Assembly (NCBI GenBank): GCA_016879935.1
Contig: JAACJQ010000060.1
Span: forward strand, 1 to 64,000
Reading direction: 5' to 3'
Length of the DNA stretch: 64,000 nucleotides
From: Archangiaceae bacterium
GTDB taxonomy: Bacteria; Myxococcota; Myxococcia; Myxococcales; Myxococcaceae
The translations under genes and the position numbers were made by a program. Positions within the stretch are counted from its first letter, which is position 1; the number at the start of each line of letters is the position of its first letter. The notes beneath the pieces are model-generated. The model was not told the DNA's origin. It did no database searches and saw only the letters and a list, made by a program, of their open reading frames with translations. This document shows, in pieces, positions 47,075-55,733 of the stretch.

Positions 47075-47554
47075 ATGAAGAAGCTGATCCTGATCATCTC
47101 GTCGCTCGTCGCCGTCGTCGCGTTCGCTGAGCCTGCGAAGAAGCCGGCCGACCCGAAGGCGGCTCCCGCGGCCGCCCCCGCTGCCGACGCCAAGAAGGTC
47201 GCCATCACCGGCGACGCTGCCAAGGGCGCCGCCAAGTACAAGGAGCTCTGCGTGAGCTGCCACGGCGAGACCGGCAAGGGCGACGGCGTCGCTGCTGCGG
47301 CCCTCACGCCGAAGCCGGCGAACTTCACCGACGCGGCGCACGCGGCGACCGTCACCGACGAGTACATCCTCAACATGATCAAGGAAGGCGGCGCCGCCAA
47401 TGGCAAGTCGCCCCTGATGGCCAGCTGGAAGGCCGCCCTGAAGGAAGACGAGCTTCAGAACGTCGCCGCCTTCGTGCGCTCGCTCAGCAAGACCGCCGCT
47501 GCGCCCGCGGCCGCCGAGCCGAAGAAGGACGAGAAGAAGCCGGCCAAGAAGTAA
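47075..47554 (+). CDS. Periplasmic monohaem cytochrome c
   Basis: 159 residues. Ribosome site GGAGG eight bases before ATG. Signal peptide 1-18 (LIISSLVAVVAFAEP), Lys/Pro/Ala linker, haem motif CVSCH (59-63) with axial Met115 in SPLMASW, and a Lys-rich tail. A class I, single-haem cytochrome (CCxx-type, GDAAKGAAKYKELC opening). Electron carrier in the periplasm; partners not in view, although two haem proteins lie at 51149-52836. Confidence 0.93.
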   Translation: MKKLILIISSLVAVVAFAEPAKKPADPKAAPAAAPAADAKKVAITGDAAKGAAKYKELCVSCHGETGKGDGVAAAALTPKPANFTDAAHAATVTDEYILNMIKEGGAANGKSPLMASWKAALKEDELQNVAAFVRSLSKTAAAPAAAEPKKDEKKPAKK

Positions 47555-47577: not shown

Positions 47578-47614
47578 GGGCTCCGAGCGTCTCGTTCGGG
47601 GCCCGTTTCGTTTT
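47578..47614 (+). terminator. Intrinsic terminator after the cytochrome c gene
   Basis: Twelve-base arms GGGCTCCGAGCG (47578-47589) and CGTTCGGGGCCC (47593-47604) pair with two G-U pairs around a three-base loop. GTTTCGTTTT follows. It ends at the stop of the convergent carbonic-anhydrase-like gene. Confidence 0.85.
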
Positions 47615-48609
47615 CAGTGATGCGCGGGCTCGGCGGAGGCGCTCTTGTCGTGTTTGCCCTCTTCGGAGTCGAGCCACCGCACCCGGCCGCTCTCGAGGTC
47701 GTAGGTCGCGCGCAGCACCAGCAGCTGGCCGCCCTTCATGCGATCACGAATGAGCTTCTTGCCGAGCACCTTCGCCGTCACCTGCGTCACCTGCTCGCCC
47801 ACGTCACGACCCGAGCCATCGTCGCAGCCCTGGTGACCCAGAACGACCAGCACCGGCGGCGAGAACCGCTTCATCGCGAGCTCGACCGAGTTCACCGTCG
47901 GCGCGTCGGCCTTGAGCACCACCGCCCGCAGCGTCGCGAGAGTGCCGGGCGGAGCATCGAACACGGCTTCGGGCACGGCGCGGCCATCGGCGCAGGTCAG
48001 CACCACGGCCCACGGCGCGAACGCCTTCGCCATCGCCCCGCGCTGCGCGACCACGTCACGCGACTTCGAGACGCCCTGGCTCCACCGCGTATTGCCTTCG
48101 TCGAGCCACGCGAACACCTCGAGAGGGTCTTTCGGCACGGGCGCGAGCAGGGGCGTGAGCTCTTCCTTCGCTCCCTCGGCCACCCTGGCGTGCGGGTCGG
48201 CCTTCTCCGCCTTCTCGGGCTTCTCGGCCTTCGCGTGGGCATCGGTCTTCGCCGGCTTCGCGTGCGGGTCGGGCTTTGGAGCAGGCTCGGCGTCTTCGTC
48301 TTCCGGTTCTTCTCTCGCGGCCTTCACCGCCTCGGCCTTCGCGTGCGCTGACTTCTTCTTCTTCGGCGGAGGCGCGGGCTCGGGTTCGGCGTCTTCTTCG
48401 GCGGCGGCGTCGTCTTCGGAGGGAGGCGCCTTCTTCTTCGCGTGCGCAGCTGGCGGCGCGTCACCGCCACTCATCGAGACACCGACGGCGAGCCCACCGA
48501 GGCCCAGCACGAGGGCAGATTGCACGGCCACGACGATGATGAGCTTCCTGGACACGCTGAGCAGCGAGAGCAAGCGACGATCCACCCGCAGGCGGGCCAG
48601 TTCGTTCAC
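47614..48609 (-). CDS. Membrane-anchored beta-carbonic-anhydrase-like protein
   Basis: 331 residues from a GTG. One membrane helix (about 23-45), then a 100-residue highly charged Lys/Glu/Ala/Pro linker with HAK repeats, then a beta-carbonic-anhydrase-like domain. The motif usually CxDSR reads CADGR (Cys206, Asp208, Arg210); the second site is GHQGC (His259, Cys262). Zinc ligands appear kept, but the Ser to Gly change and the missing usual GN-rich loop make CO2 hydration activity uncertain. The domain would face the periplasm. Confidence 0.78.
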   Translation of the reverse strand: MNELARLRVDRRLLSLLSVSRKLIIVVAVQSALVLGLGGLAVGVSMSGGDAPPAAHAKKKAPPSEDDAAAEEDAEPEPAPPPKKKKSAHAKAEAVKAAREEPEDEDAEPAPKPDPHAKPAKTDAHAKAEKPEKAEKADPHARVAEGAKEELTPLLAPVPKDPLEVFAWLDEGNTRWSQGVSKSRDVVAQRGAMAKAFAPWAVVLTCADGRAVPEAVFDAPPGTLATLRAVVLKADAPTVNSVELAMKRFSPPVLVVLGHQGCDDGSGRDVGEQVTQVTAKVLGKKLIRDRMKGGQLLVLRATYDLESGRVRWLDSEEGKHDKSASAEPAHH

Positions 48610-50397: not shown

Positions 50398-50568
50398 ACC
50401 GTTTCGAGACCTTCGGGGCACCCAGGTCTGGCCTTGGGCGCCGTTCGTCGGAGGAGTCTTCACCCGTAACTTTCCGCAGCCATCATCCGTCGAAGTGAGC
50501 GCACGCGATTCCGTTTTGGATTCCGCAGGCTTGGGGCAGACTCCGCGCCCCGTATGAAAGGCACACAC

Positions 50569-51117
50569 ATGACGCTCCAGGGTTCGCTCCGCGCCGTTCT
50601 GACCGCTTCGCTGGTTCTCGCCGCTACCGCCTTCGCAGGGTGGACGAAGACGGGAGATGGCGTCGCCTCGTTCAAGGGCGTGGGGCCCGCAGGCTTCAAG
50701 ATCGAGGGCAAAACCAAGAGCGTCGACGTGAAAGACGATGGCAAGGCCATCACCGTCGTCGTCGGCCTGAAGGACCTCGAGACCGGCATCGACCTTCGCG
50801 ACAAGCACATGCGCGAGAAGTACATCGACGTCGAGAAGTACCCCGAGGCGACGCTGGTGGTGCCGCTCGATCAGGTGAAGTGGCCTGAAGACGGCAAGTC
50901 GTCAGAAGGCGAAGCGAAGGGCACCTTCGGCCTGCACGGCAAGACGAAGGAAGTGTCGTTCAAGTACAAGATCAGCAACACGGGCGGCACGTACGCCATC
51001 GATGGCGAGGCTCCGGTGAACTTCAAGGAGTTCGACATCAACGTGCCCAGCTACATGGGCATCACCGTGAAGCCCGACATCACCGTCTTCGCGAAGTTCA
51101 ACGCGAAGAAGGGCTGA
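50569..51117 (+). CDS. YceI family periplasmic protein
   Basis: 182 residues from ATG 50569 with AAAGG eight bases upstream; an ATG at 50554 is possible but has no ribosome site. Signal peptide MTLQGSLRAVLTASLVLAATAFA. Lipocalin-like YceI body: VASFKGVGPAGFKIEGKTK, DLETGIDLRDKHMREKYIDV, YPEATLVV and FGLHGKTKEVSFKYKIS. YceI proteins bind polyisoprenoids/quinone-like lipids. The gene leads a run with two haem proteins. Confidence 0.9.
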   Translation: MTLQGSLRAVLTASLVLAATAFAGWTKTGDGVASFKGVGPAGFKIEGKTKSVDVKDDGKAITVVVGLKDLETGIDLRDKHMREKYIDVEKYPEATLVVPLDQVKWPEDGKSSEGEAKGTFGLHGKTKEVSFKYKISNTGGTYAIDGEAPVNFKEFDINVPSYMGITVKPDITVFAKFNAKKG

Positions 51118-51148
51118 GCCGTACAGCAGGTCAACGCGAGGGGTCGTA

Positions 51149-52339
51149 GTGTTCAGACGATTTGGGTGGTTTCTCGCTGTCGCGGGCCTGTCGGCCTCGT
51201 CTGCGGCGGCGTTCCCGTGGATGGTGAAGCACGACTACCAATCGTGTGCCGTCTGCCACGTCGATCCCTCCGGAGCCGGGCAGCTGACGCCCTACGGCCG
51301 CGCGCAGAGTGACGTGCTGTTGCGGTGGAAGCTGAAGAAGCCGACCGCCGAAGAGGCGCAGGAGCCCAGCCCCACCACGCGCTTCTTGTGGTTCATCGAT
51401 CTGCCCGAGGTGCTCAACCTGTCGGGCAACTTCCGCGGCGGCGCGCTGATTCCCATCGGCAGCCAGGTGCGCCCACTCTTCATGGCGGCCGACCTCTACG
51501 GCACCGTGAAGGTCGATCGCTTCGTGTTCCACGCGACGACGGGCGTCGGCCTGCGCAACGTCGGGCCCGCCGCGATTCTGCCGGCGTGCGGTGGAGACAC
51601 GCCGTGCAACGCGCAGTGGGTCGCGCGCGAGTTCTGGGCGGGGGCCACCTTCGCCGACGAGGCCGTCATGGTGCGCGCCGGGCGAATGTTCGTGCCCTTC
51701 GGCCTGCGCAACAACGAGCACTTCATGTGGGTGCGTGACGCGACGAACACCGACACCAACCTCGATCAGCAGGTGGGCATCGCGGCCAGCTACAACGGCG
51801 AGCGCCTGCGCGGCGAGGTGATGGGCCTGCTGGGCAACTACCAGCTCGGGCCCGACGCGTACCGTGAGCGTGGCTACTCGGCCTTCGCCGAATACTCGGT
51901 GGCCTCGAAGTTCTTCCTCGGCGTCTCGAGCCTCATCACGGCGGCGCAGGCCGACCCGCTGCTGCAGCTGCCGCAGGTACGTCACGCACACGGCGTCACC
52001 GCGCGGTGGAGCCCCATCGAGCCGCTCGCGCTCATGGCCGAAGCCGACTTCCTCGCGTGGCAGCAGCCGACGCTCATCGATCGGCTCGGGTTCGCGGCGA
52101 TGGTGCAGGCCGACTACGAGCTGATGCAGGGCCTGCACCTCATCGGTTCGCTCGAAGGCAAATACACGGGTTCGGGAGAGCGTGGGCCGTCACTGGGCGG
52201 GTGGATCTCTGCCGCCTGGTACGTGTTGCCGCACGTCGAAGTTCGTCTCGACGGCATTCTGCGCCGCAACGCGCGGCCCCTGCCCGACCCGGCCACCACG
52301 AGCTTCACGCTCCTCGCCCAGCTGCACTTCTTCCTGTGA
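51149..52339 (+). CDS. Outer-membrane barrel-like protein with an N-terminal haem c motif
   Basis: 396 residues from a GTG. Signal MFRRFGWFLAVAGLSASSAAA, then CAVCH (33-37) in DYQSCAVCHVDPSGAGQL followed by TPYGRAQ. The rest has barrel-like alternating strands (WFIDLPEVLNLSGNFRGGAL, VFHATTGVGLRNVG, VKVDRF, QQVGIAASYNGERLRGEVMG) and ends LLAQLHFFL. Haem at the mouth of a barrel suggests electron transfer at or through the outer membrane, or a redox gate (inference). Starts 31 bases after yceI. Confidence 0.75.
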   Translation: MFRRFGWFLAVAGLSASSAAAFPWMVKHDYQSCAVCHVDPSGAGQLTPYGRAQSDVLLRWKLKKPTAEEAQEPSPTTRFLWFIDLPEVLNLSGNFRGGALIPIGSQVRPLFMAADLYGTVKVDRFVFHATTGVGLRNVGPAAILPACGGDTPCNAQWVAREFWAGATFADEAVMVRAGRMFVPFGLRNNEHFMWVRDATNTDTNLDQQVGIAASYNGERLRGEVMGLLGNYQLGPDAYRERGYSAFAEYSVASKFFLGVSSLITAAQADPLLQLPQVRHAHGVTARWSPIEPLALMAEADFLAWQQPTLIDRLGFAAMVQADYELMQGLHLIGSLEGKYTGSGERGPSLGGWISAAWYVLPHVEVRLDGILRRNARPLPDPATTSFTLLAQLHFFL

Positions 52340-52347
52340 GGCCAACG

Positions 52348-52836
52348 ATGCGATTCGATCGGGCGATTCTCATGGGTGCGCTGCTGGCGGCTTCTGCGGC
52401 GCTGGCGACTCCGACGTTCACGGGCGTGATGCAGACCGAGCTGGGCATGTCGGGGCCTCCGCCCGGCGTCTGCGCCGTCTGTCATCTCAACGGCGTCACC
52501 GCGACCGGCACGGTCACGACGCCCTTCGGCCGCGCGCTGCGCATGAACGGGCTGATGCCGAACAACGACGCCACGCTGAAGGCGGCGCTCGCGGCCATCG
52601 AGGCGGCGAACACCGACAGCGACGCCGACGGTTGCACCGACATCGCCGAGCTGAAGGCGATGCCTGACCCGACCAACCCGAACCGCGCTGGTGACTGTGG
52701 CGGCGCCTCCGACGGAGGTACGGCTGGCGGGACGGCGACGCTCGGCCCGATTCGCTACGGCTGCGGCGCGAACTCGGTGCCCGGGGTGTTGGGCCTGGTG
52801 GGTGTGCTGGCCCTGCTCGCCCGTCGGCGAAGGTGA
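52348..52836 (+). CDS. Monohaem protein with MYXO-CTERM-like tail
   Basis: 162 residues. Signal peptide MRFDRAILMGALLAASAALA, haem motif CAVCH (42-46) then TTPFGRALRMNG, a calcium-binding-like NTDSDADGCTDIAEL segment, and a C-terminal Gly-Cys (Cys139) followed by a hydrophobic helix and four Arg (VLALLARRRR). The last feature resembles the myxobacterial MYXO-CTERM sorting signal. It shares CAVCH-x(10-12)-TPxGRA with the barrel protein eight bases upstream, so the two form a pair. Confidence 0.82.
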   Translation: MRFDRAILMGALLAASAALATPTFTGVMQTELGMSGPPPGVCAVCHLNGVTATGTVTTPFGRALRMNGLMPNNDATLKAALAAIEAANTDSDADGCTDIAELKAMPDPTNPNRAGDCGGASDGGTAGGTATLGPIRYGCGANSVPGVLGLVGVLALLARRRR

Positions 52837-52874
52837 CCTGTACCGGCCGGAGCTTTGTTGGTAACGCTGCCGAC

Positions 52875-53843
52875 GTGCTCCGCGCCCTCGCGATCAGCCT
52901 CGCCTGTCTGACGGCCTGCTCCCAGCAGCAGAAGCCGCAGCAAGACGCGAACGTCGTCGCCACCGTGAACGGCGAGGTGATCACCCGCGCCGACTTCGAG
53001 CGTGAGCTCTCGCGTGAGTCGCAGGCGATGGAGGGCGCGGCGCCGCGGTCACCCGAGCAGATCGAGCCGTTCAAGCAGACGCTCCTCGAGACGATGATCG
53101 AGCGCCTCGTGTTGCTCCAGGCCGCGCGTGAGCTGCAGGTGCAGGTCAGCGCCGAAGAGGTCGATCGCCGCGTGCTGGCGCTCACCAGCGAATACCCCGC
53201 CGGCACGTTCGACACCGCGCTCGCCCAGAGCCAGACCTCGAAGACCGAGCTCGCGCGCCGCACGAAAGAGCAGCTGCTCGTCGAGCGTCTGCTGGCCGAC
53301 CAGGTCTTCTCGCGCGTCGCCGTCACGGAAGATCAGCTGCGCCGCATCTACGACGAGAACCCCGACGCGTGGACCGAGCCTGAGCAGGTGCACGCCCAGC
53401 AGATCGTCGTGAAGGGCCTCGACGAAGCCAAGCGCCTCAAGGATCTGCTGTGGCAGGGCAAGAAGTTCCCCGACCTCGCCCGGCGCTACTCGTTGTCACC
53501 CGACGCGAAGGTGGGTGGCGATCTCGGCTTCTTCAAGCGCGGAGAGATGCCGCCCGCGTTCGACGACGCCATCTTCCGCCTCGGCGCAGGTCAGGTGAGC
53601 GACGTGGTGTCGACCGACTACGGCTTTCACCTGTTCAAGCTCATCGAGAAGAAGCCGGCGCGGAAGCGTGAGCTGGCGGAGGTGCGCGGGCAGATCGAGC
53701 AGAAGCTGTTGACCGACCTTCGTGCCGAGCGCCAGACGGCGTACGTGAAGGGGTTGCGCGAGAAGGCGCAGGTGAAGGTGAACGACGCAGCGTTTCAGTC
53801 GGTCACCGGCCGGCCGCTCGGCGGCTCCACCGTCGAGCCCTGA
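52875..53843 (+). CDS. PpiC-type peptidyl-prolyl isomerase lipoprotein
   Basis: 322 residues from a GTG at 52875; lipobox CLTAC (Cys15) supports it. The N-terminal SurA-like chaperone region (VNGEVITRADFERELSRE) is followed by a parvulin domain (about 165-260) with HAQQIVVKGLDEAKRL, YSLSPDAKVGGDLGFFKRG and FHLFKLIEKK. Periplasmic folding factor, membrane-tethered. It is the first of two parvulin-type genes in the operon. Confidence 0.9.
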   Translation: MLRALAISLACLTACSQQQKPQQDANVVATVNGEVITRADFERELSRESQAMEGAAPRSPEQIEPFKQTLLETMIERLVLLQAARELQVQVSAEEVDRRVLALTSEYPAGTFDTALAQSQTSKTELARRTKEQLLVERLLADQVFSRVAVTEDQLRRIYDENPDAWTEPEQVHAQQIVVKGLDEAKRLKDLLWQGKKFPDLARRYSLSPDAKVGGDLGFFKRGEMPPAFDDAIFRLGAGQVSDVVSTDYGFHLFKLIEKKPARKRELAEVRGQIEQKLLTDLRAERQTAYVKGLREKAQVKVNDAAFQSVTGRPLGGSTVEP

Positions 53844-54767: not shown

Positions 54768-55733
54768 ATGCCCCCGTGCGTGAAGCGCCTGCCCCTGCTG
54801 ACTCTCCTCACCGCCCTGTCTGCCCACGCCGAGCTGGTCGACCGTGTGGCGGCGGTGGTGAACAACGACGTCATCGCGCTGTCCGAGGTCGAGGCCCGCG
54901 CGGCGCCAGACCTGCAGCGGCTTCGTGGTGAGCCCGACGCGGCGAAGCGGGCCGAGCTGCGTGGCATTCTCGTCAAGCGCGTGCTCGATGGCCTCATCGG
55001 CGAGAAGTTGATGGACGCGCAGGTGCGCGAGCTGAACATCGACGTGTCGGATTCGGAGGTCGATCTCGGCGTCGACGACGTGAAGCGGCAGAACAACGTC
55101 GACGGCGCCCAGTTCGAGCAGCTGCTCGCGCAGGAGGGCTACACCGTGCCCGCCTTCCGCCAGTTCATGAAGAAGCACCTCTCGAAGCTGAAGCTGGTGA
55201 ACCTGAAGGTGCGCTCCAAGGTGAAGGTGACCGAGGAGGACATGAAGGCCGAGTACAACAAGGTGTCGCGTGACGAGCTGCAGGACTTCGAGGTGCGCGC
55301 CCGCCACATTCTCGTGCAGGTGCAGCCCAAGGCGACGCCGGAGCAGGCCGAGCAGGCGAGGCTGAAGGCCGTCGCGCTGATGAACGAGGCGAAGAAGCCC
55401 GGCGTCGACTTCGGGAACCTCGCGAAGACGAAGAGCGAGGGCCCGTCGGCGAGCGATGGTGGCGACCTCGGGTTCTTCAAGCGCGGCGTGATGGTGGCCG
55501 AGTTCGACAAGGTGGCGTTCGGCATGCCCATCGGCGGCATCTCGGAGCCCGTGCGCACGAAGTTCGGCTGGCACGTCATCAAGGTCGAAGAGCGGCGCGC
55601 GATGGCGGCGAAGCCGTATGACGAGATGAAAGACGTGCTCCGTGAGCGCCTCGCGAGGACGCAGCTCGAGAAGTACACCGAGCAGTACGTGCAGGAGCTT
55701 CGCGCCGCTGCAGCCATCGACATCAAGCTGTGA
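54768..55733 (+). CDS. SurA-like periplasmic chaperone / peptidyl-prolyl isomerase
   Basis: 321 residues; signal peptide (CVKRLPLLTLLTALSAHA). SurA-type N-domain VDRVAAVVNNDVIALSEVEAR, helical SurA core, and one parvulin domain (about 175-270; VRARHILVQVQPKATPEQ, SEGPSASDGGDLGFFKRGVM, FGWHVIKVEERR). Assists outer-membrane protein folding. pdxA follows with a GTGA overlap, the same surA-pdxA order seen in enterobacteria. Confidence 0.9.
   Translation: MPPCVKRLPLLTLLTALSAHAELVDRVAAVVNNDVIALSEVEARAAPDLQRLRGEPDAAKRAELRGILVKRVLDGLIGEKLMDAQVRELNIDVSDSEVDLGVDDVKRQNNVDGAQFEQLLAQEGYTVPAFRQFMKKHLSKLKLVNLKVRSKVKVTEEDMKAEYNKVSRDELQDFEVRARHILVQVQPKATPEQAEQARLKAVALMNEAKKPGVDFGNLAKTKSEGPSASDGGDLGFFKRGVMVAEFDKVAFGMPIGGISEPVRTKFGWHVIKVEERRAMAAKPYDEMKDVLRERLARTQLEKYTEQYVQELRAAAAIDIKL

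Follow-up and report, generated by a model that had tools for sequence, protein, structure and literature searches.

The described system closest in architecture to the locus reported here is Cyc2, in which a cytochrome with a single haem is joined in one protein to an OprO/P-like porin of 16 strands; the porin was matched to the OprO (4RJW) and OprP (2O4V) structures, the substrate has been argued to enter the pore, and the haem has been argued to lie at its periplasmic mouth (PMC8406198). Outer-membrane barrels are also found together with c-type haem in MtrCAB, MtoAB and PioAB, where the barrel has 26 strands and is complexed with partners to give ten or more haems. A second set of comparisons involves the YceI lipocalins. 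YceI domains bind ubiquinone-8 and are in some cases joined to c-type cytochromes (PMC8981238, PMC9113575), BcnA being a YceI lipocalin that is usually linked to the haem gene lcoA, a cytochrome b561 (PMC9113575), and Cbp2D pairing YceI with a c-type cytochrome (PMC8981238). We describe a three-gene myxobacterial module that combines elements of both groups, and which on balance we read, at a little better than even confidence, as a Cyc2-like redox porin system; it is probably a new way of passing electrons at the outer membrane.

A conserved three-gene locus

The window (the whole stretch of DNA analyzed, 64,000 nucleotides) contains the module at positions 50569-52836, together with the neighboring genes discussed below:

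47075..47554, + strand: class I monohaem cytochrome c, 159 aa (PF00034, E 2.2e-11)
47614..48609, - strand: carbonic-anhydrase-like protein (PF00484, E 1e-13), preceded by a long region rich in Lys, Glu and Pro
50569..51117, + strand: periplasmic lipocalin of the YceI family (PF04264), 182 aa, with a signal peptide
51149..52339, + strand: 16-strand outer-membrane barrel with a fused monohaem cytochrome, 396 aa from a GTG start; CAVCH spans residues 33-37
52348..52836, + strand: small monohaem protein, 162 aa, with signal peptide, CAVCH, an Asp-rich Ca-binding-like segment and a MYXO-CTERM-like tail
52833..53843, + strand: SurA-like PPIase (4-base overlap with the small haem gene)
54768..55733: second SurA-like PPIase

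The three open reading frames are adjacent on the + strand, as originally predicted, with gaps of only 31 and 8 bases. The YceI gene runs from an ATG at 50569 (with an alternative ATG at 50554) to a stop at 51117, the haem-barrel gene starts with a GTG at 51149 that has GAGGGG a few bases 5' of it, and the small haem gene extends from an ATG at 52348 to a stop at 52836. All three products have a Sec-type signal peptide ending in AxA, as judged by eye from the sequence rather than with a predictor. The SurA-like PPIase gene at 52833 is a downstream neighbor within the genus and lies outside the conserved core; we note that both SurA-like genes after the module code for outer-membrane protein chaperones and adjoin a gene for an outer-membrane protein.

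Each haem protein has one CAVCH only, followed by TPYGRA or TPFGRA. The original prediction proposed CAVCH plus TPxGRA as a shared signature, and this holds for both window proteins, but the full TPxGRA is confined to the closest relatives, and it is a CxxCH followed by [YF]G that is widely kept. The haem domains of the two proteins have a profile similarity score of 30.0, barely above the maximum of 28.3 in the shuffles used for the Cyc2 comparison (see below), and a common origin of the two is not supported.

The barrel protein is present in 49 of 195 Myxococcota genomes, representing 27 of 90 genera. When 84,980 species genomes were scanned, 95 barrel relatives came up, and among the best 80 of these 95 loci, which were kept, all three genes are found in 51, the barrel and small haem protein in 17, the barrel and YceI in six, and the barrel alone in six. 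Nearly all of these 80 are named as myxobacteria, 'Deltaproteobacteria' or unclassified proteobacterial MAGs, and they include the cultured Minicystis rosea (strain DSM 24000, locus L085), in which the set is present. Across 101 distinct barrel loci from all sources, YceI is upstream in 67 (within 300 bases in 56) and the small haem gene is directly downstream in 79, and these counts are lower bounds owing to contig ends; both partners are absent in 13, several of which are on contigs that end close by. Chance adjacency is ruled out, because the whole genome that contains the window has only eight YceI genes, yet 67 of the 101 barrels have one upstream. The three-gene set is thus conserved across the Myxococcota, and the search for it in other genomes bears out the original grouping.

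The haem-barrel protein and its relation to Cyc2

Neither haem protein is named in profile searches with Pfam or NCBIfam. An AlphaFold2 model of the haem-barrel protein, computed with an alignment of 31 relatives, has 16 long strands between residues 89 and 395 (pLDDT 85.3, pTM 0.82), and with the comparison to PDB structures this turns the barrel-like strands noted originally into a predicted barrel rather than a non-barrel fold. The haem domain is modeled with a pLDDT of only 52-78, and as the barrel model was computed without haem, the position of the haem in it is one that we infer. General porins are matched by Foldseek, and the top rows with VIA-align are OprO (4rjw, Z 25.7) and OprP (2o4v, Z 25.6), which other 16-strand porins trail by no more than about 1 Z. 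Porin_O_P (PF07396) has weak matches (E 0.01 or better) in six of the 31 relatives and none in the window protein, and a search of PDB sequences with the barrel profile gave a single insignificant match (E 2.8).

Loss of the CxxCH in orthologues is not seen, and the motif is kept in 81 of the 81 barrels in which the N-terminus is covered. Upstream of it, a Met at -8 (75/81; Met25) and a His at -5 (71/81; His28) could, judging from their conservation, serve as the second haem ligand. Within the barrel, 36 positions are conserved in 95% or more of 80 proteins, and 10 of these are Arg, which accounts for 6.8% of residues barrel-wide; this pattern suggests that an anionic or chelated substrate may be no less likely than free Fe(II). 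The genome containing the window also has a second barrel paralogue that is split across two reading frames (locus L061, 5294-6554, G000:C268), either a pseudogene or an assembly error; roughly 2 kb downstream of it there is an ordinary YceI gene. One relative has a barrel gene in pieces, in several reading frames and with in-frame stops (L166, 4720-5900, G185:C71).

As in MtrCAB, MtoAB and PioAB, an outer-membrane barrel occurs together with c-type haem, but the window protein has one haem, 16 strands, and a haem domain fused to the barrel. The MtrB_PioB family (PF11854) has no match in the genome containing the window, and a multihaem conduit is ruled out by the 16 strands, the one CxxCH and this absence of PF11854. 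The original prediction was therefore right to set the locus apart from the multihaem porin-cytochrome systems, but it missed Cyc2, which has the same layout of a monohaem domain and a 16-strand porin (PMC8406198); the arrangement is therefore not entirely without precedent.

The likeness to Cyc2 includes a signal peptide, a single N-terminal CxxCH, an A-x-P equally far before the CxxCH in both, and a 16-strand OprO/OprP-type porin, in a protein of 396 aa (against a criterion of at least 365 aa). For this comparison, Cyc2-motif proteins were taken from plasmids and from Myxococcota genomes, where the motif is present in 23 of 195. Profile alignment of the window-family haem domain with the plasmid Cyc2-motif set gave a probability of 97% and a score of 43.9, whereas 60 shuffles of the Cyc2 columns with the CxxCH kept reached 28.3 at most (median 21.3), and the haem-domain likeness to Cyc2 therefore exceeds the CxxCH itself; haem sites of unrelated proteins in these loci scored 23.4, 23.0 and 19.8. 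Profile comparison of barrel to barrel is uninformative, even for two groups that both have the Cyc2 motif.

There are also clear differences. The Cyc2 motif AxPxFAR[QK][TY] is not in the window protein, in which AFPWMVKHDYQSC has the A-x-P in register without the FAR[QK][TY], and neither is the Cyc2 PxL motif, located four residues past the CxxCH (here CAVCHVDPSGAGQLTPYGR); the DNA pattern for A-x-P-x-F-A-R-[QK]-x(4)-CxxCH has no match in the window's own genome (G000). Where Cyc2 has the PxL segment the window family has CHVDPSGxGxLTxYGR, and, unlike Cyc2, it has the near-invariant Met and His upstream of the CxxCH and is partnered by YceI and a haem protein with a surface tail. In a maximum-likelihood tree of 40 proteins, the window family and two sister groups (YceI-paired deep relatives and a third haem-porin group) are split from motif-bearing Cyc2 with support of 100/100, and the family's own branch has support of 97/99, although the tree is midpoint rooted and the barrel sequences are poorly alignable, so that the branching is to be taken with care. 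We place the family beside Cyc2, not inside it, and it looks like a so far unrecognised relative, forming a distinct lineage that has no name and is associated with other partners. Among open-licence papers, we found none that connects YceI to Cyc2 or to a cytochrome-porin, and no description of such a lineage in Myxococcota.

True Cyc2 proteins also occur in this phylum, and in several Myxococcota the gene immediately after one for a class I cytochrome c codes for a protein with the full motif (L180, L181, L182), making these organisms possible iron oxidisers. A weak match to the small haem protein beside a true Cyc2 (L147, 15.9 bits) was dropped, as the larger locus L180 gave no such match. 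On the Acidithiobacillus ferrooxidans plasmid CP084173.1, a Cyc2-like protein is annotated as hypothetical and has a c-type cytochrome gene downstream (L159, 2390-3757).

One alternative to our reading is that the window protein is an Fe(II) oxidase that performs the job of Cyc2 in myxobacteria, in favor of which are the Cyc2-like architecture and the homologous haem domain. The class I cytochrome at 47075, near the module, also shares 43-46% identity with the cytochrome whose gene immediately precedes cyc2 in other Myxococcota and is syntenic in close relatives; judged on its sequence, it is a possible periplasmic partner outside the conserved core, with a weak link to the module because the two are about 3 kb apart in the window. 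However, with both Cyc2 motifs missing, the family outside motif-bearing Cyc2 in the tree, a window-type barrel and a Cyc2-motif protein together in single genomes (G014 and G026), and an Arg-rich set of conserved barrel positions that does not favor a free cation, we consider iron oxidation by this protein unlikely.

Partner proteins and neighboring haem proteins

The assignment of the first gene to YceI is secure in the profile comparison (64.5 bits against PF04264, with a cut-off of 23.7), in agreement with the original prediction. YceI is the partner retained longest, as the deepest relatives (L063, L161, L162) have a YceI-barrel pair without the small haem protein. YceI proteins also bind lipids other than quinones and may have a role in lipid repair, and the module could be an envelope defence against lipid peroxidation, in which a BcnA-like YceI scavenges lipid radicals and the haem proteins take or give electrons. 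The linkage of a haem protein gene to a YceI lipocalin is indeed shared with BcnA/LcoA, and the persistence of YceI beside the barrel in the deepest relatives is in keeping with such a role. Nonetheless, BcnA/LcoA has an inner-membrane b561 where the window has an outer-membrane haem-porin, no cytochrome b561 is found among the trio and the six neighbors scanned, and the 16-strand pore and the surface tail of the small protein are left unexplained; this explanation, too, is improbable.

Other haem proteins are found near the barrels, and cytochrome c assembly genes are present in the genome containing the window. In 13 of the best 80 of the 95 loci, a lipoprotein with mostly three CxxCH motifs and matches to Cytochrome_CBB3 adjoins the barrel; examples between YceI and the barrel are L113 (5004-5921) and L097 (4826-5992). 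The sister haem-porins (L167, 3931-5169; L168, 4360-5571; and L170-L172) have the motif AEPHLAVREGFLCSQCHVNRxGGG and no Pfam name, and this group adjoins dihaem cytochromes and in some loci also a protein with multiple CxxCH. These observations bear on the idea of a redox-gated porin, in which the barrel is an ordinary substrate porin and the haem is structural or a gate. Although the OprO/P-type fold is that of a porin and the small size of the haem domain would let it act as a plug, the additional haem proteins and a putative quinone carrier in the same loci suggest electron flow, not structure alone, and we regard a purely structural or gating haem as quite improbable.

The small monohaem protein was originally predicted to have a myxobacterial surface-sorting tail; the parts of such a tail are kept, but its score is under the model cut-off. 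The tail has Cys139, a predicted helix at 145-160 and an RRRR end, and these three MYXO-CTERM parts (an invariant Cys, a hydrophobic helix and a basic end) are kept across 24 aligned small proteins, in which the CxxCH is also invariant. The window protein scores only 16.4 bits with the NCBI MYXO-CTERM model TIGR03901, under the cut-off of 20, and four of the 24 sequences match the model at E 0.01, while nine other proteins of the same genome are over the cut-off. MYXO-CTERM sorts proteins to the surface (PMC11980579), and by analogy, with the tail below cut-off, the small haem protein is probably on the cell surface. Its Asp-rich segment resembles the calcium-binding TSP3 repeat, with TSP3_bac matches in nine of the 24 sequences, and its predicted model matched no solved fold, which is a weak test given the model pLDDT of 74.

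A haem protein with a surface tail might also be imagined to supply electrons to secreted copper monooxygenases (LPMOs) in the manner of Cbp2D, in which monohaem c-type domains are likewise joined with YceI, but Cbp2D is a secreted protein with a carbohydrate-binding module and no barrel, the window has separate proteins plus a porin and no carbohydrate-binding domain in the module, and no LPMO_10, the family searched, is found in the window's own genome (95% complete), and we consider this explanation very unlikely.

A proposed Cyc2-like redox porin system

In the Cyc2-like redox porin system that we prefer, the haem domain would lie at the periplasmic mouth of the barrel, as argued for Cyc2, and a small soluble redox substrate would enter the charged pore and trade one electron with the haem. 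With a single haem there would be no haem-to-haem hopping through the membrane, and a small substrate would therefore have to enter the pore. The electron would pass to or from the quinone pool by way of a YceI-carried quinone or the periplasmic class I cytochrome; several relatives of YceI bind an isoprenoid such as ubiquinone-8 (PMC9113575), and YceI may thus shuttle electrons to or from this pool. The small surface haem protein would trade electrons with the substrate, or deliver it, outside the cell, and the direction of the whole may be that of an oxidase or a reductase. The electron-transfer conduit first proposed is kept in so far as a redox role is probable, but a haem-to-haem wire is unlikely. 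Overall, the original observation is correct, and it is more robust than could be known when it was made.

More tentatively, and at less than even confidence, we propose that the module represents a second, Myxococcota-wide lineage of fused monohaem cytochrome-porins that is a sister of Cyc2, has as its partners a lipocalin that carries quinone and a monohaem protein anchored at the surface, and acts on a non-iron, perhaps anionic, extracellular substrate with no multihaem protein.

If this is so, the class of fused haem-porins would extend beyond the Cyc2 iron oxidases, with a branch that motif-based Cyc2 searches overlook. The three genes are small enough for expression and assay in Escherichia coli, and YceI, which is very common and of uncertain role, would gain a testable partner. 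The mainly heterotrophic myxobacteria would in turn have an outer-membrane redox system.
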